IMG/VR virus record: IMGVR_UViG_3300032050_000019
Span: 1 to 64,000 of that record
Origin: a virus
DNA length: 64,000 nt
Strand: one strand, 5' to 3'
Part shown: in pieces, positions 14,931 through 63,375 of the stretch
How positions within the stretch are numbered: position 1 is the stretch's first letter
Layout: each line of letters begins with the position of its first letter
Made by a program: the position numbers and the translations under genes
The notes under the pieces: model-generated
What the model saw: only the letters and a program-made list of their open reading frames with translations
What the model was told of the DNA's origin: nothing
Databases searched by the model: none

Positions 14931-16943
14931 TTATTTTTTAAAAATTTTTAGATTATCGTTTTTGTACCTCAATGTTACTTGTTTATTTTCCACAATATTT
15001 CCTTTTAAAATTTCTTCGCTTAAAAAGTCTTCCAATAAATTTTGGATAATTCTTTTTAATGGTCTTGCACCATATTCTTCTTGTGAATTTAAATCAAAAA
15101 TTTTGTTAACAACAGAGATATCGTAATTGATTTTGTAGTTTTTTTCAAGTAATCTGTTAGAAAGTAATTTTAATTCTATATCAATAATTTTTTTAAGTGT
15201 TTCATTATTCAAAGAATTGAAGAGGATAATATCGTCAATTCTATTCAAAAACTCAGGTGAAAATTGTTGTTTTAATGACTTCTGAATTATTGATTTTCTA
15301 ACTTCATATTTTTGTTGTTCAGTAGATTTAGTTGCGAAACCAACACCATCACCAAAATCAGATATTTTTCTTGCACCTACATTTGATGTCATAATAATTA
15401 GACAATTTGTAAAATTAACTTTCCTACCAAAGGAATCAGTCAAATGTCCTTCATCTAAAATTTGAAGTAAAAGATTAAACACATCTTTATGAGCTTTTTC
15501 TATTTCATCAAATAGAATAACTGAAAATGGATTGTTTTTAACTTTTTCTGTTAATTGTCCACCTTCATCATAACCCACATATCCGGGAGGAGAACCTATT
15601 AGTCTTGATAAATTATGTTTTTCCATATATTCACTCATATCAATTCTAATCATGTTTTCAGGATTACCAAACAAAACTTCCGCAAGTGATTTTGCTAAAA
15701 ATGTTTTACCTACTCCAGTGGAACCTAAAAATATAAAAGAACCAATTGGTTTGTTTGCGTCTTTGATTCCAACTCTATTTCTCCTAATTGATTTGGATAT
15801 GATTGAAATTGCTTCATCTTGACCAATAACTTTATTACTTAGTATTTCTTCTAATTTTAAAAGTTTTTCAGTTTCTTTACTATCCAATTTTGCAATAGGA
15901 ACACCCGTCATTTGAGATATAATTTGATAAACATCATCAATAGAAATTGGGATTTTGTTCTCTTTTTTAATGTTGTTCCATTTTTGTTTTTCTTCTTCTA
16001 ATGATGTTAAAATTTTTCTTTCTTCATCTCTAAGTTTTGCAGCTAATTCATAGTTTTGTGATTTAACAACTTCTAATTTTTTTTCTTTTAATTCTTCCGC
16101 TTGTTTTTTTATCTTATCTATTGAATCAGGTATTTTATCAGAAACTTTTTTCTCGGAACCAAGTTCATCCATAACATCAATTGCTTTATCCGGAAATTGT
16201 CTATCTGTAATGTATCTACCTGATAATTTTACAATTGTTTCTATAACCCCTTCTTCATATGATACTTTATGATAATTCTGATAAGAATTTTTTATATTAT
16301 TAAGAATTTCAACTGTTTCAGATTGTGTTGGTTCTTTTAGAATTATTTTTTGAAATCTTCTTACCAAGGCACTATCTTTTTCGATATGTTTCTTAAATTC
16401 ATCAAATGTGGTTGCACCAATACATTGAATTTCACCTCGAGCTAATGCTGGTTTTAATATGTTGGCAGCATCCATTGAACCACTTGCGTTTCCTGCTCCA
16501 ATCATGGTATGTAATTCATCTATAAAAACAATTACATTAGGTGCTTCTTGTAGTTCGTTAAGAATTGCTTTAATCCTTTCTTCAAATTGACCCCTATATT
16601 TAGTACCAGCGACAAGTGATGTCAAATCTAAAGACATAATTCTTTTTTCTAAAAGATTTGGTGGACATTGATTTTTATAAATCATAAGTGCTAGTTTTTC
16701 AACTAACGCAGATTTACCAACTCCCGCGTCTCCAACAATTACCACATTATTTTTCTTTTTACGAGATAATATTTGTGCAATTCTTTTTACTTCAATATCT
16801 CTACCAATTACCGGATCTATTTTACCCTCTTCAGCTAATTTTATCAAATCCCTTGAAAAATTATCTAAAATAGGTGTGTTAGAACCTTTTTTTACTTTCT
16901 TTTGGTTTGAAGTTGGACCTTCTTCAAAAAAATCTACTGACAT
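14931..16943 (-). CDS. ClpC-like double AAA+ unfoldase lacking the N-domain
   Basis: A 670-residue Hsp100 protein. The first AAA+ module has Walker A GDAGVGKS (71-78) and Walker B VIVFIDE (137-143). A UVR-like motif ([15 protein letters not shown], about 296-310) sits in the linker, as in ClpC. The second module has GSTGVGKT (407-414), pore loop GYVGYDEGG (454-462), ILFDEIE (476-482) and sensor-2 GARPLKR (625-631). It is shorter than cellular ClpC (about 810-850) because the N-terminal double Clp repeat is missing. A VGF tripeptide (534-536), at the position where ClpC binds ClpP, is kept, so docking to the host protease is plausible. The gene is divergent from the Hsp20 gene and followed by the candidate ncRNA. 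Confidence 0.9.
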
Positions 16944-22851: not shown

Positions 22852-22855
22852 TACG

Positions 22856-22882
22856 AAAAGGTGGTTTTACCACCTTTTTTTG
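22856..22882 (+). terminator. Intrinsic terminator before the terminase gene
   Basis: The stem AAAAGGTGG / CCACCTTTT with a 5-base loop and T-run. The long open frame of the terminase runs through it from a GTG at 22861, which shows that the true start is further downstream. Confidence 0.88.
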
Positions 22883-22890
22883 TATTTATA
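22883..22890 (+). promoter_or_regulatory. Putative late promoter box TATTTATA, 3 nt before the terminase ATG
   Basis: It directly abuts the preceding terminator and ends 3 nt (TGT) before ATG 22894. This is one of six cases with exactly this spacing. Confidence 0.5.
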
Positions 22891-22893
22891 TGT

Positions 22894-24672
22894 ATGAATA
22901 GTAAAATTGAGCAGTTAAAAGAATATGCTCGTATTATCAAAGATGCTCCATATGCTCTCAAAACATATCTAACAACTTATGATAATACACAAAAGAAATT
23001 TGTTCCTTTAGAATTATTCCCTGACCAAGTTCAGTTAATTAAAGATTACGAAACTTATAATGAGAATATAACAAGGAAATATAGACAGGCGGGTGTGTCA
23101 ACAGTTACCGCTGCATGGATATCAAAGAAACTTCAGACAGCAAAACCCGAAAATCCTGAAAGGGTTTTGATTATTGCAAACAAGAGAGATACCGCAATTG
23201 AAATGGCCAATAAGGTTAGACATTTCTTAGACCAATGGCCTGAATGGATTAATGTTGGTTTTCACCCGGATAAAAATTCAGAAAGTAGATTTAGATTAAA
23301 CAATGGTTGTGAAGTAAAAGCGGTAGCAACATCTGCGGATGCGTTACGTGGTTATACTCCAACAATACTTGTATTTGATGAGGCTGCTTATATTGAAGCA
23401 GGAGAAGATTTTTGGGCGGCGTCTATGGCGTCATTGTCTACCGGTGGTAAGATTATTCTTATTTCAACACCAAATGGATATGACCCAATTTATTATGGTG
23501 TTTATGATCAGGCTCTACGTGGTATAAATGATTTTCATATTACTGATTTAAGATGGTTTAAAGACCCAAGATATACTAAGGATTTAAGGTGGATTAAATG
23601 TGCTGACATATGTCATTACATGTTGAATAGAGAACAATATAATGATGATGAAGTTGTTATGTACGATTTTGATATTGAAAAATATCGTGAGTATGAAGAA
23701 CAAGGATACAAACCTTTTTCTTCTTGGTTTGAATCTATGTCTAAAAAATTCAAATATGATAGACGTAAGATTGCTCAGGAATTGGAATGTGACTTTTTAG
23801 GTTCAGGTGATGGTGTTATTCCAGGTGAAATACAAGAGAATATTGCAAAGAATATGGTTAGACAACCGATTGAAAAGTATATGCAAGGTACTCTTTGGCA
23901 ATGGAAAGAACCTATTGTTGGTCACCGATATATTATGGGTGTTGATGTGAGTAGAGGTGATAGTGAAGATTTTTCAGCAATCAATATAATTGATTTTGAT
24001 GATAGAGAACAAGTTTTAGAATATATAGGAAAAATTCCTCCAGATGATTTGGCGTCAATCGCATATAAATGGGGTATTCTTTATGGTAATTCATTTATTG
24101 TTACAGATATAACTGGTGGTATGGGAATTGCTACATCAAGAAAACTTCAAGAAATGAATTATAAAAATTTATATATTGAAGGTATTAATACACAAAATAT
24201 TTGGGAATATAATAGAAAAGTAATGGATAAAATTCCCGGTATAAATTTTAATAACAAAAGAACTCAAATTGTTGCTGCATTTGAAGAACAAGTTAGAAAA
24301 GGATTCTTAATTAGATCGAATAGATTATTAAATGAATTAAACACGTTTGTTTATATTAATGGTAGACCTGACCACATGAAAGGTGCTCATGACGATGCAA
24401 TTATGAGTATATCTATGGCGTTATATGCTGGTGATATATGTTTTAACCAACTTCAAAGAAATGAATCGGCAAATAAAGCCATGTTAGAGTCTTGGACAGT
24501 AAGTGAAAGAACATATGAACCTAATAAATCATTTTATTCATACGGAACGTCTTTTGATCCGGTTGGTTTAACTCAAATGGATAATCCAGGATTAAATTCT
24601 AATATGAATAATATATCATCAAATAAAGACGCATATCAAGAATATTCGTGGTTATTTGGTACTAAGAAATAA
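22894..24672 (+). CDS. terL: Terminase large subunit, gp17-like
   Basis: A 592-residue DNA-packaging motor. The ATPase domain shows RKYRQAGVST (61-70) as a variant Walker A, Walker B TILVFDEAA (157-165) with catalytic Glu, and motif III LISTPNG (189-195). The nuclease domain shows MGVDVSRGDSEDF with D351, FIVTDITGG with D405, and GAHDDAIMS with D500/D501. Length and order match T4 gp17 (610). The start is placed at ATG 22894 because the open frame upstream crosses a terminator and promoter box. It threads DNA into proheads through the portal encoded next and cuts the concatemer. Confidence 0.95.
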   Translation: MNSKIEQLKEYARIIKDAPYALKTYLTTYDNTQKKFVPLELFPDQVQLIKDYETYNENITRKYRQAGVSTVTAAWISKKLQTAKPENPERVLIIANKRDTAIEMANKVRHFLDQWPEWINVGFHPDKNSESRFRLNNGCEVKAVATSADALRGYTPTILVFDEAAYIEAGEDFWAASMASLSTGGKIILISTPNGYDPIYYGVYDQALRGINDFHITDLRWFKDPRYTKDLRWIKCADICHYMLNREQYNDDEVVMYDFDIEKYREYEEQGYKPFSSWFESMSKKFKYDRRKIAQELECDFLGSGDGVIPGEIQENIAKNMVRQPIEKYMQGTLWQWKEPIVGHRYIMGVDVSRGDSEDFSAINIIDFDDREQVLEYIGKIPPDDLASIAYKWGILYGNSFIVTDITGGMGIATSRKLQEMNYKNLYIEGINTQNIWEYNRKVMDKIPGINFNNKRTQIVAAFEEQVRKGFLIRSNRLLNELNTFVYINGRPDHMKGAHDDAIMSISMALYAGDICFNQLQRNESANKAMLESWTVSERTYEPNKSFYSYGTSFDPVGLTQMDNPGLNSNMNNISSNKDAYQEYSWLFGTKK

Positions 24673-24723: not shown

Positions 24724-26520
24724 ATGGATAATCAAAATTTAACGGTATTTCAGAAACTCACTAAGATGTTTGGGTTTCCGGGTCAATCAAAACCTGAAGA
24801 AAAACAATCATTTACATTTAGTAAGGATGAGTTACTGAAAACGGATAGTAAAGAAGAATACGAAAACGCATTACTTCAAGCACAACAAAGTACATATATC
24901 GCAGATAAATGGGCTAAATTAGATCAATCACTATATAATCAATCAGTATATTATGAACCAAATAGATTAGCAGCATACTATGATTATGAATCTATGGAGT
25001 TTACTCCGGAGATATCTGCTGCTTTAGACATTTACGCTGAAGAATCAACAACAATGTCAGAAAAAGGTGAAATATTAACGATATATTCAGAATCAACCAG
25101 AGTTAAAAATATTTTAGAAGATTTATTTAGTAACAGATTAGACATAAACACAAATTTACAAATGTGGGCTAGAGGATTATGTAAATATGGTGACAATTTT
25201 ATCTATCTCAAAATAAATCCCGAAAAAGGAATTATTGGTTGTCAACAGTTACCAAATATTGAAATAGAAAGATTGGAAGGTGTTTCATCAAAAACACCCA
25301 ATCAAAATCCTGAAATGAAAATGCCAACTAGAGAATTGAGATTTCAATGGAAAAATAAAGACATGGAATTTCAATCATGGGAAATTGGACATTTTAGATT
25401 ATTAGGTGATGATAGAAAATTACCTTATGGTACATCAATGTTAGATAAAGTTAGAAGAATTTGGAAACAACTACTTTTAGCCGAAGACGCTATGTTAATT
25501 TATAGAACATCAAGAGCACCGGAGAGACGTGTGTTTAAAGTCTTTGTTGGTAATATGGATGATAAGGATATTGAAGCTTACGTACAAAGGGTTGCGAATA
25601 AATTTAAAAGACAACCTATTGCTGACCCTAAGAATGGACAAATTGATATGAGATATAATCAAATGGCGGTAGACCAAGATTATTTTATTCCTGTTCGTGA
25701 TCCAGCTGCGACTAACCCTATTGAAACATTAGCAGGTGCTCAAAACTTAGGTGAAATCGCCGATATAGAATATATTCAAAAGAAATTATTAGCTGCATTG
25801 AGAATACCTAAAGCTTTTTTAGGGTTTGAAGATGCTGTGGGTGACGGTAAGAATCTTGCACTAATGGATATACGTTTTGCGAGAACAATTAATAGAATTC
25901 AAAAATCATTAATTCAGGAATTAAATAAAATTGCGTTAATTCATTTATACTTATTAGGTTTAGAAGATGAATTAAATAATTTTCAATTATCTTTAACTAA
26001 CCCATCTTCTCAATCAGAATTATTAAAGATTGAACAATGGAAAGAAAAGATAACTCTTTATAAGGATGCAACATCTGACCAATCTCAAATAGGTATTTTA
26101 CCTGTTTCTCATACATGGGCTAAGAAAAATATTCTTGGTATGAGTGATAATGAAGTTATTCTTGATTTACAGCAACAAAGACTTGAAAGAGCTATTGGTT
26201 TTGAGTTAACTAACACACAAAATGTTATTAAACGTTCAGGAGTATTTGATAATGTAGACAATAAGTACGGTATACCCGAAAAAGAAAGAGAAGCAAGTGC
26301 GGGTGCTCCAGGTGAATCTCCCGGTGGTATGGGTGGTGAATTGGGTGGTGGTTCTCCTCCTCCACCACCTCCAACAGGTGGTGGTGAAGCTCCTTTAAGT
26401 GAATCAAAAAAATTAAAAATAACAGAAATGTTAGATGAAAATGAAGAATTTGATTTTAATAAGGCGCAAGAGAATATTTATGAAATAGAAAATAAATTAA
26501 AAGACATATTAAACGATTAA
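24724..26520 (+). CDS. gp20: Portal vertex protein, gp20-like
   Basis: A 598-residue protein with features of T4-type portals: an early YYDYESMEFTPEISAALDIY segment, a central core (DKVRRIWKQLLLAEDAMLIY, then RAPERRVFKVFVGNM), and the conserved helical region VGDGKNLALMDIRFARTINR. The length is close to T4 gp20 (524) plus a C-terminal extension rich in Gly and Pro (GGMGGELGGGSPPPPPP), which is unusual for portals. It forms the dodecameric entry ring for DNA and docks the terminase encoded upstream. It lies directly between terminase and the prohead-core genes, the T4 order. Confidence 0.93.
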   Translation: MDNQNLTVFQKLTKMFGFPGQSKPEEKQSFTFSKDELLKTDSKEEYENALLQAQQSTYIADKWAKLDQSLYNQSVYYEPNRLAAYYDYESMEFTPEISAALDIYAEESTTMSEKGEILTIYSESTRVKNILEDLFSNRLDINTNLQMWARGLCKYGDNFIYLKINPEKGIIGCQQLPNIEIERLEGVSSKTPNQNPEMKMPTRELRFQWKNKDMEFQSWEIGHFRLLGDDRKLPYGTSMLDKVRRIWKQLLLAEDAMLIYRTSRAPERRVFKVFVGNMDDKDIEAYVQRVANKFKRQPIADPKNGQIDMRYNQMAVDQDYFIPVRDPAATNPIETLAGAQNLGEIADIEYIQKKLLAALRIPKAFLGFEDAVGDGKNLALMDIRFARTINRIQKSLIQELNKIALIHLYLLGLEDELNNFQLSLTNPSSQSELLKIEQWKEKITLYKDATSDQSQIGILPVSHTWAKKNILGMSDNEVILDLQQQRLERAIGFELTNTQNVIKRSGVFDNVDNKYGIPEKEREASAGAPGESPGGMGGELGGGSPPPPPPTGGGEAPLSESKKLKITEMLDENEEFDFNKAQENIYEIENKLKDILND

Positions 26521-26522
26521 AC

Positions 26523-27266
26523 ATGAACAGTTTTGGTAAATTAAAATCAAAATTACTGACAAGAATATCTGAATCGTATTCTGAAAAAAACATGACAGAT
26601 GTAAAATCTATTATGGAAATCATAAAAGAGAATAAAAGTTTCAAAGAATTATATCTATTTTATGAAGAAATAGAAAACAAATATTTTGAAGATAAAAATG
26701 TTGCGAAAGTATACGTTGAAAGTATAATTAATCTATTAAAAGATAAGACTAAAGAATTATATAAATTTAACAAAACACTTTACGAACATATTCAAGATTA
26801 TAACTGTGATAACAATCAAGTATATGAATACTTAGATATTTTATCAGAGGATGATAGTTTGTTAAACATAGATAAAAAAGTATTAGCGAAGGATAATTTA
26901 ATTAAGTTTTTAACAACTAAAAAAGAATCTGTAAAACTTGAGGAATCGGAAACATTAATACCAAATTTAGGTTTATTAAATGCAGTACTTGTCAATAATT
27001 TCAATGTTTTATATAATGATTCATTAAATGAGAATCAGAGAAAAGAATTAAAGGACATTTTATCATTTAATGACGAAGATTTAAAAGAAAAAACAAAAGA
27101 ATTAAAAGAAGATATCAATCAAAAAATCAATGGTATCTTATCTGAGTCAAAATACATACAATCAGATGTTATATCAAAATTAGAATCTGTTAAAAAAGAA
27201 GTGGATTCTATGGAAATTTCAAAATACAATTATTACAAACTTAAAGAATTAAAAAATGGTCTTTAA
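26523..27266 (+). CDS. Hypothetical protein at the prohead-core position
   Basis: A 247-residue, highly charged, largely helical protein (MNSFGKLKSKLLTRISESYS, then KELKEDINQKINGILSESK) beginning 2 nt after the portal stop. No motif is recognised. In T4 the space between portal gene 20 and protease gene 21 holds core genes 67 and 68, so a prohead-core or scaffold-helper role is the positional inference. Its last codons form half of a terminator hairpin shared with the convergent bS21 gene, and the two stops overlap by 4 nt. Confidence 0.65.
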   Translation: MNSFGKLKSKLLTRISESYSEKNMTDVKSIMEIIKENKSFKELYLFYEEIENKYFEDKNVAKVYVESIINLLKDKTKELYKFNKTLYEHIQDYNCDNNQVYEYLDILSEDDSLLNIDKKVLAKDNLIKFLTTKKESVKLEESETLIPNLGLLNAVLVNNFNVLYNDSLNENQRKELKDILSFNDEDLKEKTKELKEDINQKINGILSESKYIQSDVISKLESVKKEVDSMEISKYNYYKLKELKNGL

Positions 27267-27281
27267 TTAAGACCATTTTTC
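27252..27281. terminator. Bidirectional terminator formed by two convergent gene ends
   Basis: The stem AAAAATGGTCTT / AAGACCATTTTT encodes Asn-Gly-Leu at the end of both the core protein (plus) and bS21 (minus). It provides a T-run in each direction. Confidence 0.85.
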
Positions 27282-27454
27282 ATTTTATTTTTAAATTTAG
27301 CTTTTAATATAATTTCTCTTTTAACTACAGAGGGTTTCACGTATTCTTTTCTCTCTTTCAATTTTTGAATTTGTTTAATTCTATTCACCTTGTTTTTATA
27401 GTTTTTCAACGCGGTTTCAATATTTTTTTCTTTTGTTACATCAATAATAATCAT
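27263..27454 (-). CDS. rpsU: Phage-encoded ribosomal protein bS21
   Basis: A 63-residue basic protein from ATG 27454 (MIIIDVTKEKNIETALKNYK). The pattern I-x-V-x-x-x-x-N-I-E-x-A-L-K-x-Y-K, then the basic helix, then KPSVVKREIILKAKFKNKMK follows bS21 of Bacteroidota along its whole length. The upstream in-frame ATG at 27529 would add 25 hydrophobic residues and is rejected. It is expected to bind the 30S platform near the 16S 3' end. In Flavobacteriia bS21 helps to hide the anti-Shine-Dalgarno sequence, so a phage version could alter initiation. No Shine-Dalgarno sequence precedes this gene. It sits alone on the minus strand inside the head operon. Confidence 0.88.
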   Translation of the reverse strand: MIIIDVTKEKNIETALKNYKNKVNRIKQIQKLKERKEYVKPSVVKREIILKAKFKNKMKNGLN

Positions 27455-27554
27455 AAAAATAAGTATTTGAAAAAAATATAAAAAAATTTGTTTTTTACTA
27501 AAAATTATATTATATTTTATTAACACCATAAAAATATTATAACATGAAAAATTA

Positions 27555-27980
27555 ATGAAAACCGGTAAGTTTATTCCATTAGGAATTTACAATGATGTAA
27601 AAATTGGATATGGAACAGTAGATTCTAAAAATTTAAAAACAATTTATTTAAAAATTAATTCTTGGGTTCAACCAAAAAACGAAAATGAAGATTTTGATTT
27701 TACTATTTTGAAATCAAGAAGATTAATTAAAGAAATAATTTCTAATCTCAAATTAGAATATTTTAAACCACAATCTATAGTTGATTTAGACATAAGGACA
27801 AAAGGAATTAAAAAAGAAAAAAAATCCTTTATGAATTTAGAGGTTACTTTATACGTAGAAAAAAAGTTTGATGTTAAATCAAAAGAAATAAAGTCAACTA
27901 TAAAATATATTACAGAAACCATTATCGATAATGGTTTATCTGACAAAAATCTATTTAATTTCTCTAAAAGTAAAAATTAG
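27555..27980 (+). CDS. Hypothetical protein between bS21 and prohead protease
   Basis: A 141-residue basic protein (MKTGKFIPLGIYNDVKIGYG) with alternating strands and Lys-rich helices (KGIKKEKKSFMNLEVTLYVE). No family is recognised. It occupies the second core-gene position (T4 gene 68 region) before the protease. The upstream 100 bases are very AT-rich. A possible host-type promoter (TTTG at 27487, then TATATTTT at 27511 after 20 nt) loosely fits the Bacteroidota consensus and may serve this gene. The role is unknown. Confidence 0.6.
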   Translation: MKTGKFIPLGIYNDVKIGYGTVDSKNLKTIYLKINSWVQPKNENEDFDFTILKSRRLIKEIISNLKLEYFKPQSIVDLDIRTKGIKKEKKSFMNLEVTLYVEKKFDVKSKEIKSTIKYITETIIDNGLSDKNLFNFSKSKN

Positions 27981-28016: not shown

Positions 28017-28703
28017 ATGAAGATATTAGGTCCCAATGATATTGGTGTAAAAGGTTACCTCATCGAATACGATGCAGGATACGTTTCCGCAGAAGATAAT
28101 AAAGGAATAATTTCAGAAATGAAGGATATGGACTTTTCAAAAGACCTTATCCTTTATGCTGTTTTACAGAAATACGACACACCAAACAAAAATGGTAGAA
28201 TTTATCCTGAAACCATTTTAAAAAGAGAAAACGAAAAATATCAAACAATTATAAAAAAAGGTGGGGCATTAAATGAATTAAATCACCCATCATCTTCTCT
28301 TATTGACTTAGACAGAGTTTCTCACTCAATTTTAGAAACATGGTGGGATGGTAAAATGTTAATGGGTAAAATCAAATTGTTTACTTCTCCCGGTTGGAAA
28401 AAAATGGGAATAGTCAGTACTAAAGGTGACCAAGCAGCAATGTTAATAATGAATGGTGCGACTTTAGGTATTTCATCTAGAGGAGTTGGTTCTTTAAAAA
28501 ATATAAAAGGTCAAAACGTTGTACAAGAAGATTTTGAATTGGTCTGTTTTGATTTAGTGTCGTCTCCGTCTACTCCTGGTGCATATGTATTTAGTGACCC
28601 ATCAGAGAGAGAACAGTATCAAGAGTCTATAGAAGAACCAAAGGTCGATACTGACAAAATGAAAAGTCTAATGGGTCGACTTGATAACTTCTTATCAAAA
28701 TAA
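28017..28703 (+). CDS. gp21: Prohead core protease, gp21-like
   Basis: A 228-residue serine protease of the T4 gp21 / herpesvirus-assemblin-like group. Key features are YDTPNKNGRIYPETIL (53-68), GGALNELNHPSS with catalytic His90, and ATLGISSRGVG (148-158) with the nucleophile at Ser153 or Ser154. EDFELVCFDLVSSPSTPGAY follows. The length is close to T4 gp21 (212). It should cleave the scaffold, capsid protein and internal proteins during head maturation. It sits directly before the scaffold and capsid genes, as in T4. Confidence 0.92.
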   Translation: MKILGPNDIGVKGYLIEYDAGYVSAEDNKGIISEMKDMDFSKDLILYAVLQKYDTPNKNGRIYPETILKRENEKYQTIIKKGGALNELNHPSSSLIDLDRVSHSILETWWDGKMLMGKIKLFTSPGWKKMGIVSTKGDQAAMLIMNGATLGISSRGVGSLKNIKGQNVVQEDFELVCFDLVSSPSTPGAYVFSDPSEREQYQESIEEPKVDTDKMKSLMGRLDNFLSK

Positions 28704-28791: not shown

Positions 28792-30009
<1,218 letters not shown>

Positions 30010-30037: not shown

Positions 30038-31786
30038 ATGGGAGCATTATTAGAATCAGGTATGGTTGGTAACATCGGTCTTAAGCACCTTCGTGTTATC
30101 AAAGAAGATACCATCAGAAAATGGGATGACCTCGGATTCCTTGAGGGTCTTGACGGTCACATGAAAGATAACATCGCGCAGTTGTATGAAAACCAAGCGT
30201 CTTATTTGATAAACGAAGCAGCAGTATCTGATGCTTCAGGTTCATTTGAGACTGTGGTATTTCCTATCATCAGACGTGTGTTCTCTAAATTATTAGCTAA
30301 CGACATCGTGTCTGTACAAGCTATGAACTTACCAATCGGTAAATTATTCTATTTCGTACCAAAAATTCAAGATAGAACTGGCGGAAATGGTCACTATCAA
30401 CCATATGGTATTCCAGGTGGTGGAGGTGGTACAAGTGCATCTACTGGATACACAGGTATTAACCTTTATGATCGTTTCTATGAGTCAAACGATGACGCAA
30501 CTTCAGGATTGTATGATTACTCTAAAGGAGGTTTCACTACAGTTAGTTTAACAGGTAATAGTCTTGTTACTTTCTCTAACGGAGCTGTTACTTATGGTGT
30601 AACTTATCCAATTAATACATCTTTATCAAGTGTAGTTGTTGCACTTAGTGGTTTCTCTAGACCAGGTCAAGGTAAATTAGCTGGTCCAGACGGTAACGAA
30701 ATGGATACAGAAGAATTCTTGGCTTCATTATCTGTTGTGACTAACGCGGTTAGTATTTCAGGTATATCAACAGGAAATTTACCATTCAATATCGTTACAC
30801 AGAAATATGGTAAAGGAATTGTTAATTACGGTGTTAAAGCATTTGATTCTGCTAATGGTCTTGGTTATCAAGATATTTGCGATGAGAATGGTACTATATT
30901 CATCCAAGTTGATTTACAAACTTATTCGTCAACTGCAGGTTTCTCTAATTACACAGTAGCAGGTGGTGCTTTAGATGGTACTGACTTTATCTTTACTTAT
31001 CGTAGATATGCTACTTTGGAATTTGAAGATGAAATCGGTGAAGTTTCTTTCGATCTTGAGTCAGTAACAGTTTCTGTAACTGAAAGAAAATTGAGAGCTA
31101 GCTGGTCTCCTGAATTAGCACAAGACGTTAGTGCGTTCCACAACATCGATGCAGAAGCTGAGTTAACAGCGTTGTTATCTGAGCAAATCGCTGCTGAGGT
31201 TGACCGTGAAATTTTACGTGACCTTAGAAAAGGTGCAGCATGGTCATTGAAGTGGGATTACAACGAATGGAAATATGGTGGTAATGCAGGTGCTACTCTT
31301 CAGGGTTACACTCAAAAAGATTGGAACCAAACATTGTTAACCAAAATTAACCAATTGTCTGCTCAAATCCACAAAACTACTTTGAGAGGTGGTGCTAACT
31401 GGATCGTTGTTTCTTCAGAAGTTTCTGCAGTATTCGATGATTTGGAATATTTCCACGTATCAAACGCTGCTCCTGAGCAAGATCAGTACAACATGGGTAT
31501 TGAGAAAGTTGGTACATTAGCAGGTCGTTACCAAGTATATCGTGACCCTTACTTCCCAGCAGGAAAAATCTTGATTGGACACAAAGGTAAGTCATTGTTA
31601 GACGCTGGTTACATTTACGCACCATACGTACCATTACAGTTGACTCCAACAATGTATAATCCTTTCAACATGACACCGATTAAAGGTATCATGACAAGAT
31701 ACGCAAAGAAAATGGTTAACAACCGTTACTTCGCAACTATCGATGTGAGAGGTCTTCAAACATTTGATTTGAACACTTTAAGATAA
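30038..31786 (+). CDS. gp23: Major capsid protein, gp23-like
   Basis: A 582-residue capsid protein with the T4 gp23 pattern: IKEDTIRKWDDLGFLEGL, a block around residue 75 (ASGSFETVVFPIIRRVFSKL), VQAMNLPIGKLFYFVPKI, and near the end KKMVNNRYFATIDVRGLQTF. It is longer than T4 gp23 (521), with extra loop sequence in the 130-320 region. Codons look more GC-rich and more optimised than those of neighbours, as expected for the most abundant virion protein. A strong terminator follows. Processing by the gp21-like protease near the N-terminus is expected. Confidence 0.95.
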   Translation: MGALLESGMVGNIGLKHLRVIKEDTIRKWDDLGFLEGLDGHMKDNIAQLYENQASYLINEAAVSDASGSFETVVFPIIRRVFSKLLANDIVSVQAMNLPIGKLFYFVPKIQDRTGGNGHYQPYGIPGGGGGTSASTGYTGINLYDRFYESNDDATSGLYDYSKGGFTTVSLTGNSLVTFSNGAVTYGVTYPINTSLSSVVVALSGFSRPGQGKLAGPDGNEMDTEEFLASLSVVTNAVSISGISTGNLPFNIVTQKYGKGIVNYGVKAFDSANGLGYQDICDENGTIFIQVDLQTYSSTAGFSNYTVAGGALDGTDFIFTYRRYATLEFEDEIGEVSFDLESVTVSVTERKLRASWSPELAQDVSAFHNIDAEAELTALLSEQIAAEVDREILRDLRKGAAWSLKWDYNEWKYGGNAGATLQGYTQKDWNQTLLTKINQLSAQIHKTTLRGGANWIVVSSEVSAVFDDLEYFHVSNAAPEQDQYNMGIEKVGTLAGRYQVYRDPYFPAGKILIGHKGKSLLDAGYIYAPYVPLQLTPTMYNPFNMTPIKGIMTRYAKKMVNNRYFATIDVRGLQTFDLNTLR

Positions 31787-60537: not shown

Positions 60538-61653
60538 ATGATGACACCTGAAATATACAATAGATTAATGACGGATAAAAAGGTAGGATATGAGGTAACT
60601 TTTTTTCAAGTATTAAGTGAAATCGGGGAATATAAGTACAAAGATAAATGTATAAAATACCGGATATCTGACTCAATTAATTTTATATTAAAAGAATATT
60701 ATGAACCATTAGGTTTATGGTTAAGAAATCCTCACCCTCAATCTAAATTAACTGATTTTGGTGTTGTGTTATTGAATAGGTGGCACAGATTAAATACACT
60801 TAATACTAATTTAAGTGGACAGTTATATCTTTTTTCACAATGTAATGTTATTTTGGAATCATTAAAAAAATCCGGAAAAGATTATATTGAAATTGATGGT
60901 AAAATAATATACACTGAAAAAATAAGAATAGGTGAGAATTGGAGAGAAGATATTGAATCGACATATGAAAAAATTCATAGTCTTTTATTAATTGTTAGAA
61001 AATACAGTAATTTATTATTGGATTATAATTCACCTCAGTGTAAAGAAATGATGTCAATATGTGCAAACGTAATGATGATAGGTGACATTGGTGAAATGTT
61101 ATTCAAAAGATTTATTAACGAATTTTTCCCAAATTATTTAAGAATGAAATGTTCAAGTGGATTAGGTGATCCACTAGATAGAGAAACTGGTGTTGATTTT
61201 TGGGTAGTTAACTCAAATAATTTTGAAGAAAAAATTCAAGTGAAATATGCAAATTATTACATCAACAATGAAAATCAAATTCTAACTAAATCTAAATTTA
61301 GTACTCGTTCTAATTGTCATTATTGGGTAATGGTTTATAAGGATAGTATAATAATGTTAAAAAATGATTTAAATAAAAATAAACAACTACAAGATACGAC
61401 ATGGGTTTTTCCTGAAGAAGTTGTAGTAAAAAAAATAAAAATAATCGATATGTTTGAAGAACTTAAAAATTTAATGAAAATAGCGAGTAAAAACAACATA
61501 AATGTTGTAATGACTAAGGATGGTGATATTAATAAAATAATTTATGATGAAGAAACCAAAACAGTTACAATTCAATTCCCTGATGCTGAAGACAAAGGAA
61601 TTAAGAAAATGGTTATTGATGAAACAGAAAGATTAAATAAGCTCTTTAATTAA
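60538..61653 (+). CDS. Putative PD-(D/E)XK-type nuclease
   Basis: A 371-residue protein with no homology I recognise over its first 170 residues, which are mostly helical. From 180 it shows a restriction-nuclease-like core: helix IGDIGEMLFKRFINEFFP with E186, then GLGDPLDRETGVDFWVV with D220, then EEKIQVKYANYY with Q234 and K236. The E...D-x13-Q-x-K arrangement matches PD-(D/E)XK enzymes with a Gln variant. DNA cleavage is the likely activity. The C-terminal 120 residues are helical and charged. The 3' end overlaps the convergent helicase gene by 21 nt. Confidence 0.6.
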   Translation: MMTPEIYNRLMTDKKVGYEVTFFQVLSEIGEYKYKDKCIKYRISDSINFILKEYYEPLGLWLRNPHPQSKLTDFGVVLLNRWHRLNTLNTNLSGQLYLFSQCNVILESLKKSGKDYIEIDGKIIYTEKIRIGENWREDIESTYEKIHSLLLIVRKYSNLLLDYNSPQCKEMMSICANVMMIGDIGEMLFKRFINEFFPNYLRMKCSSGLGDPLDRETGVDFWVVNSNNFEEKIQVKYANYYINNENQILTKSKFSTRSNCHYWVMVYKDSIIMLKNDLNKNKQLQDTTWVFPEEVVVKKIKIIDMFEELKNLMKIASKNNINVVMTKDGDINKIIYDEETKTVTIQFPDAEDKGIKKMVIDETERLNKLFN

Positions 61654-63375
61654 GTCTTTACTGAAAGATTCAGAATATTCCCCATCACCCATTACTTGGT
61701 CAATAATATTTTTCTTTTTCTGTAAAATATTATAAACAATCTTTTCAATAGTGTTTTCAAAAATTGGATAATAAACGAGAACACTATTTTTTTGCCCGTA
61801 TCTGTACGATCTATCTTCTGCTTGACTATGGTGAGCAGGAACAAAAGATAAGTCATTCATAATTACTGTGTCCGCAGCGGTTAATGTGATACCTACACCT
61901 CCAGCAATGATATTCGAAATGAATACTTTTACTTTATCGTCATTTTGAAATCTGTCAACACTTTCTTGTCTTTTATCTTTTGACATTCTTCCATCTAAAA
62001 CAACAGAATTTTTTTTATATTTTTGATGAAGAGTGTCCAATGTTGCTGTGAAGTTAGTAAAGACTATAACTTTTTTACCCATTTCTAAACACTTGTCAAT
62101 TAATTCACAAGTATATGGAATTTTTTCGTAAGAAATTAGTTGTCTTATTTTCATAAGACGATTAAGTGTAACACTTATCGTTTCATTATTTTTATTTTCA
62201 CTTGTTATTTTTGTAAACTCTTCTAATTCCTCATCGTACATTTTATTTGTCAATTCTAAAAATACAGGAGTAATTGTTTTTTCCGGTAAATCTAAAATGT
62301 CAGTTTTCATTCTTCTTAAAACATAAGATTTAGTTAAATCTCTTAATTCATCTAAATTACTTGCACCACTTGTATTCCACACTTTTCTATTACCAACAGT
62401 AAATTGATAACCTTTACAATATCTTCTTACATATGTTTGCCAATTAAGTGTTAATGGTGAGTCAACAATTTTTAATAAATTAAAATAGTTAATTGGTCTT
62501 GATGTCATAGGAGTACCAGTTAATAACCAAACCTTGGGAATTTTACTTAAGACATCATTTAATAGTCTTGTTCTATTTGCTGTTGTATTTGATACATAAT
62601 GTGCTTCATCAACTATTGCTAAATCAAAATTCATATTGACTAAAAGTTTATAATCCTCACTGTCTTCTGATTTATCAGTTGTGTGAAAGTTTTTAATGAT
62701 ATCATAGTTTATGATATAATAATCAAATGTTGAACCCCACTTTCTACCTTCAACGATTAATATTTTTTTATCGGAATAATTTTTGATTTCTCTTTCCCAA
62801 TTTATTTTAAGTGACGCGGGACAAACAATTAATATTTTTTTTGCACCACTTTCTAAAGACGCAATAACCGCAGATGTTGTTTTACCTAAACCCATGTCAT
62901 CAGCCAAGATAAACTTATTGTTGGCTAACAATTTTTCTATCGCTTCTTTTTGATGTTCAAGTGGAGGTCTATTACTATATTTACTGTAATCAATTTCTCT
63001 ATCTAATTTTTTTTCTTCTTGTAAAACTGCTGCTTTTGGTATCCAAAAAGAATTTAATGGGTCAGTTTCAATAATTTTACCCCATATATGAAACGCTTTA
63101 TCTGATTCACATAACAATTTTTCACACCAAAATTTTTCAGGTACCTCAGGAAGTAATCTTTCGTCCATAATTTTTTGTCCGAATGTTTTCGCTATTTTAA
63201 TATATTTCCTTGCAACTTTTGGTTTAATGTCATGATATTTTAAAACATACTCAGACTGTGGTCTGGTTAGTTTAAAACTCTTCTGTTCGGAAAATCTTTT
63301 TTTCCATTCTAATAATTGGTTATTAGAACCTTCATAATTTAAGAGTATTTCTCTTGCTTCAATTTCTATAATCAT
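61633..63375 (-). CDS. SNF2-family helicase / ATPase
   Basis: A 580-residue superfamily-2 translocase. Motif I is LADDMGLGKTTSA (157-169), motif II DEAHY (256-260), motif III LTGTPMTSRP (285-294), then VIVFTNFTATLDTLHQKY in the second RecA domain, and motif VI QAEDRSYRYGQ (518-528). The N-terminal 130 residues form a smaller domain with basic segments. The layout resembles SMARCAL1/HepA-type annealing helicases and, functionally, T4 UvsW, which remodels forks and R-loops. It probably acts in recombination-dependent replication or repair. A TATTTAGA sequence lies 2 nt before the ATG. Confidence 0.9.
   Translation of the reverse strand: MIIEIEAREILLNYEGSNNQLLEWKKRFSEQKSFKLTRPQSEYVLKYHDIKPKVARKYIKIAKTFGQKIMDERLLPEVPEKFWCEKLLCESDKAFHIWGKIIETDPLNSFWIPKAAVLQEEKKLDREIDYSKYSNRPPLEHQKEAIEKLLANNKFILADDMGLGKTTSAVIASLESGAKKILIVCPASLKINWEREIKNYSDKKILIVEGRKWGSTFDYYIINYDIIKNFHTTDKSEDSEDYKLLVNMNFDLAIVDEAHYVSNTTANRTRLLNDVLSKIPKVWLLTGTPMTSRPINYFNLLKIVDSPLTLNWQTYVRRYCKGYQFTVGNRKVWNTSGASNLDELRDLTKSYVLRRMKTDILDLPEKTITPVFLELTNKMYDEELEEFTKITSENKNNETISVTLNRLMKIRQLISYEKIPYTCELIDKCLEMGKKVIVFTNFTATLDTLHQKYKKNSVVLDGRMSKDKRQESVDRFQNDDKVKVFISNIIAGGVGITLTAADTVIMNDLSFVPAHHSQAEDRSYRYGQKNSVLVYYPIFENTIEKIVYNILQKKKNIIDQVMGDGEYSESFSKDLIKELI

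Follow-up and report, generated by a model that had tools for sequence, protein, structure and literature searches.

A Bacteroidota-type bS21 gene among phage head genes lacks the extended Shine-Dalgarno sequence of Flavobacteriales rpsU

Why should a phage keep a gene for the ribosomal protein bS21 among its head genes, and what would its product do on a host ribosome? We addressed this question for IMG/VR record IMGVR_UViG_3300032050_000019, whose first 64,000 nucleotides are referred to here as the window. In Flavobacterium johnsoniae, the host gene rpsU is controlled by a pool of bS21-less ribosomes; ribosomes that lack bS21, or carry a C-terminally damaged copy, favour messages with a strong Shine-Dalgarno (SD) sequence, rpsU foremost, and loss of the bS21 C-terminus or of Y54 raises translation of strong-SD reporters, rpsU included (PMC9976891).

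The first-pass annotation had described the product as bS21 along its full length, and profile and sequence matches bear this out. Pfam Ribosomal_S21 (PF01165) matched the 63-residue protein with 35.2 bits (cut-off 27, E 9.7e-9; profile positions 2-50 of 55), and the NCBIfam S21p score of 27.9 was slightly below its cut-off of 28.95. The top phmmer match among solved structures was F. johnsoniae bS21 (7jil_z), covering residues 1-62 of 63 (E 2.3e-9). The mechanically called ORF spans 88 residues; the 63-residue start is favoured because relatives uniformly begin at MIIIDVTK. The AlphaFold model contains two helices, residues 12-35 and 41-59 (pLDDT 88.9). A Foldseek search with this model returned no PDB matches, which we read as uninformative for a two-helix protein of 63 residues.

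Alignment with Flavobacterium bS21, named beforehand as a check, was gap-free and placed a phenylalanine at position 54, where the F. johnsoniae protein has the tyrosine that stacks on the anti-Shine-Dalgarno (ASD) sequence. Phe54 is thus the aromatic residue that marks Bacteroidia-type bS21, and the other C-terminal features tied to ASD sealing (KPSV, R46 and A52) are also kept, as the earlier assignment to the Bacteroidota type had implied. Judged by its sequence, the ORF at 27263-27454 (-) is a bS21 of this type. It shares its length, the KPSV motif and the aromatic residue 54 with the bS21 of Flavobacteriales hosts, in which residue 54 stacks on A1534 (PMC9976891), and differs from Flavobacteriales rpsU in its diverged N-terminal half, its lack of an extended SD and its place in a phage head-gene cluster. 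Across 22 distinct lineage proteins, K40, S42, R46, A52 and the residue called aromatic at 54 (Y in 19, H in two, F in one) are retained. The N-terminal half, in contrast to the host proteins, has diverged and is fixed inside the lineage: at positions 2, 5, 7-10, 14, 18, 21, 23, 24, 27, 28 and 30, the 22 lineage proteins and 72 distinct host proteins have zero or near-zero residues in common.

When bacterial genomes were searched with the phage protein as query, no relative was confirmed, and the host rpsU set was retrieved instead with an F. johnsoniae/9i5v alignment. A bS21 tree built from 87 rows and a small number of columns puts every viral row but L133 on the same side of a 99/93 branch, in a single long-branched group. 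L133, the most host-like viral match, pairs with the bacterial locus L318. Its contig is listed as viral; its bS21 is nearly identical to that of bacterial genome G015 (L318) and has the same SD-less upstream region. We therefore set L133 aside as a candidate for a phage that lost its SD; it may be host DNA. Separately, genome G040 holds two bS21 genes (G040:C27:2762-2920 and G040:C34:366915-367076), one of which, the divergent L289, may derive from a phage.

The gene and its surroundings comprise the following features.

22894-24672 (+): terminase large subunit (TerL), by family match; a TATTTAT element lies 4 nt upstream
24724-26520 (+): gp20-type portal protein (PF07230, E 6.1e-78)
26523-27266 (+): 247-residue head-cluster gene without family match, convergent with bS21 and ending ELKNGL before its stop
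27250-27282 (no strand assigned): terminator-like hairpin, in both directions, over both convergent stops; the two arms code for the KNGL ends of bS21 and the 247-residue protein
27263-27454 (-): bS21, 63 residues, MIIIDVTK...KPSVVKR...KAKF54...KNGLN (PF01165, 7jil_z match, AlphaFold)
27455-27554 (no strand assigned): divergent intergenic region of 100 bp between bS21 and the 141-residue gene, without SD on the bS21 side and with blocks conserved in relatives
27459-27466 (-): ATACTTAT, a variant of the phage-wide TATTTAT with its end 4 nt ahead of the bS21 ATG; possible late promoter
27555-27980 (+): 141-residue conserved neighbour in the place of Chen's bS21_CN (conservation, AlphaFold)
28017-28703 (+): prohead protease, Peptidase_S77 (PF03420, E 1.6e-23)
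28792-30009 (+): 405-residue acidic protein without family match, in the interval between protease and capsid genes
30038-31786 (+): gp23-type major capsid protein (PF07068, E 7.9e-73)

Family matches and gene order confirm that bS21 sits on the opposite strand between the portal side and the protease gene: TerL, portal, 247-residue gene, bS21, 141-residue gene, S77 protease, 405-residue gene and gp23-type capsid protein follow one another. The first-pass annotation had placed the gene inside the head operon; it does lie amid head genes, on the opposite strand, but a single operon does not hold, as bS21 and the 247-residue gene converge, with stop codons overlapping by four bases under a hairpin. 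The same order, as far as contigs reach, was found in 42 of 47 fetched viral contigs, and a 43rd (L048) spans one side only; the remaining four (L042 and L045-L047) carry bS21 without these neighbours. Close TerL relatedness, about 70% or more, is a mark of the lineage of Chen et al.; TerL of the window was compared with that of the fetched bS21 contigs and is 70-86% identical to most of them. The 141-residue neighbour shows 63-82% identity (best segment) in most relatives and about 40% in L043, L044 and L048. Its AlphaFold model looks confidently folded (pLDDT 80.7); searches against PDB folds gave no confident match (best E 0.029), and the single viral match in BFVD, A0A8S5L9A5 (E 4e-8), has no known function. 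The position of the 405-residue acidic protein suggests a scaffold or core role.

This arrangement is known. Chen et al. (2022) described 47 phage genomes with a reverse-strand bS21 in the TerL-portal-protease-capsid region, with predicted Bacteroidetes hosts and an aromatic residue 54, and proposed that phage bS21, highly transcribed alongside late genes, substitutes into host ribosomes (PMC9723584). As in clades a-e of those phages, the gene studied here is antisense among TerL, portal, prohead protease and capsid genes, belongs to a separate viral bS21 cluster with an aromatic residue 54 and has a conserved gene beside it, here the 141-residue gene, whose position is that of bS21_CN (their fam498). 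Phe54 itself was reported by Chen et al. in one case (PMC9723584). Their complete genomes measure 293-331 kb and encode 5-25 tRNAs, whereas the present record has 141.9 kb (30.8% GC) and no tRNA genes over that length by ARAGORN; it may be a fragment. The window bS21 is thus a member of a published lineage, and neither lineage, arrangement nor idea is new; the Bacteroidota context that had been singled out as the interesting part was already in print in 2022 (PMC9723584). What we add is an SD contrast with host genes, a covarying hairpin at the stop codons and the TATTTAT element, none of which occurs in the available part of the text of Chen et al. (PMC9723584).

SD duplex energies were calculated between the 16S 3' tail, AUCACCUCCUUUCU, and the 25 nt upstream of each start, with pairing stronger than -13 kcal/mol taken as an extended SD. 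The phage bS21 gene scored +1.9 kcal/mol, in keeping with the earlier claim that it has no SD, and lacks the extended form as well. An extended SD was present in 80 of 80 Flavobacteriales rpsU genes (-17.5 to -23.3 kcal/mol), a set picked by similarity to F. johnsoniae bS21, versus 0 of 85 distinct viral relatives (best -5.4 kcal/mol); 86 distinct viral genes were scored, and L144 (-13.0 kcal/mol), which is not of the Bacteroidota type, was excluded from the 85. This comparison strengthens the suggestion of the first-pass annotation that the phage gene might escape SD-based rpsU control. In a phylum-wide draw of 60 further host genomes, the rpsU gene of 40 lay below -13 kcal/mol; a strong SD was missing from several genomes with Tyr54. 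The contrast therefore appears clear against Flavobacteriales and weaker across the phylum, is drawn from related rows and depends on the host; because only 40/60 rpsU genes in the wider draw passed the threshold, some hosts perhaps have no control to escape. Neither AGGAG nor GGAGG occurred within 20 nt of any of the 136 ORFs called in the 141.9-kb record, which agrees with the claim that phage messages generally lack an SD. Because the phage ORFs are SD-less as a rule, the missing SD at bS21 is explicable without selection for escape and may simply follow phage-wide style.

Based on these features, we lean towards a functional phage bS21 that would be expressed late in infection from a transcription unit of its own and take the place of host bS21 on the 30S subunit. 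In ribosomes modified in this way, the 16S 3' tail would stay sequestered and initiation on SD-less mRNAs would still be efficient, while the diverged N-terminal half would alter mRNA handling. Since most host rpsU genes have an extended SD and the phage gene has none, phage bS21 should be made independently of the bS21-less ribosomes that control the host gene. Host rpsU, the main predicted target, should in turn stay repressed at the level of its SD-dependent translation because phage bS21 would fill the vacant site with its sealing features intact. McNutt et al. (2023) suggested that rpsU autoregulation could counter phage takeover (PMC9976891); both autoregulation and phage bS21 were known separately, and the present comparison makes the opposite outcome testable with F. 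johnsoniae reporters that already exist. A more specific proposal, which we hold to be unlikely, is that phage bS21 replaces the sensor of rpsU autoregulation without being regulated in turn: itself immune to such control because its gene has no SD, it would fill vacant ribosomes with the ASD sealed and host rpsU off, and ribosomes would drift to the phage form.

McNutt et al. also speculated that a phage protease attacks host bS21 (PMC9976891). The window encodes a ClpA/ClpC-like AAA+ unfoldase of 670 residues at 14931-16943 (-), with AAA_2, AAA_lid_9 and ClpB_D2-small domains; we draw no link between the two.

The first-pass annotation went further and suggested that initiation could be biased towards the SD-less phage messages. 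This cannot work by SD-lessness alone, because most Flavobacteriales mRNAs are equally SD-less (PMC9976891), and for the same reason sealing the ASD is not enough to tell phage and host messages apart. If there is a preference for phage messages, the diverged N-terminal half must be its source, in line with the proposal of Chen et al. Their model, in which this half selectively recruits phage mRNAs and the missing SD is incidental (PMC9723584), fits both the fixed divergence of the region and the SD-less phage ORFs, but we found no feature of phage mRNAs for such a bS21 to read; we regard it as a serious possibility that falls somewhat short of an even chance. Alternatively, the gene could serve supply, covering a bS21 shortage late in infection or ribosome turnover with specificity unchanged. 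The retained C-terminal features agree with this, as does the poor initiation on SD-less mRNAs seen in F. johnsoniae when ribosomal bS21 is truncated at its C-terminus (PMC9976891), but so many N-terminal differences from hosts would be unexpected, though they may reflect drift after an old transfer; the viral copies form a single long-branched group (99/93). We consider supply alone rather improbable.

A phage-encoded bS21 is also known from pelagiphage HTVC008M, which differs in its alphaproteobacterial host and in sequence. That protein enters E. coli ribosomes and leaves them with about 5% of the wild-type translation activity in vitro (Mizuno et al, 2019; PMC6375957). By analogy, phage bS21 might inhibit or park host ribosomes instead of supporting translation. 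However, the pelagiphage assay crossed phyla, whereas the sealing features here are those of the presumed host group, and relatives express the gene late, as would suit a need for translation; we view inhibition as very improbable. The reading we prefer remains a late bS21 that would work on host ribosomes and bypass rpsU control.

Its expression may involve TATTTAT. This motif occurs 38 times within 60 nt upstream of called ORFs (3.4 expected) and, across eleven related loci, 63 times (2.8 expected); the end of many copies lies 4 nt ahead of the start codon. As the motif was first spotted in these sequences, the counts are descriptive and not a blind test, although the related loci are partly independent. 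Upstream of bS21, ATA[A/C/T]TTAT variants occur in 15/20 and 18/23 lineage copies. The element is a possible late promoter, and if it is a -10 element, transcripts would be near-leaderless; alternatively, it could be a translation signal. Examples in the window lie at 22883, 27993, 28759, 53051 and 55740.

Bacteroidota-type promoters follow the consensus TTG-N17-22-TAnnTTTG. This consensus is only weakly enriched genome-wide (4 versus 1.6 expected), though TAnnTTTG is present in 14 of 20 bS21 upstream regions; we set this reading aside.

At the other end of the gene, the hairpin AAAAATGGTCTT...AAGACCATTTTT spans the overlapping stops (dG -13.1 / -15.1, z -5.6 / -6.7). On both strands it has the form of an intrinsic terminator, a GC-containing hairpin followed by a U run, with just three G-C pairs. 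A terminating ribosome may, according to one report, open a hairpin at a stop codon (PMC4824070). The structure is conserved in relatives: in 18 sequences sharing one geometry, pairing holds in 96% of cells, and three pairs changed on both sides, such changes accounting for nine cells versus 2.6 in shuffles and none in slid versions. The convergent gene also ends K/R-N/D-G in 57 of 60 cases in which bS21 has a K/R-N/D-G-L tail, and L269 and L270, which lack the hairpin, likewise lack that tail. Because the covarying hairpin overlaps the stops and encodes both KNGL tails, tail conservation is not assignable to protein function alone, to which Chen et al. had tentatively assigned it (PMC9723584); it reflects, at least partly, a nucleic-acid constraint, and the common KNGL hairpin cautions against reading it as ribosome function. 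Host bS21 carries K/R-D at positions 59-60, and part of the phage tail may be inherited from the host form. Elsewhere in the window, another terminator-like hairpin (22855-22879) lies immediately 5' of the TATTTAT element and ATG of TerL, and an SNF2-type helicase gene (61633-63375, -) extends 21 bases into the end of a convergent ORF.
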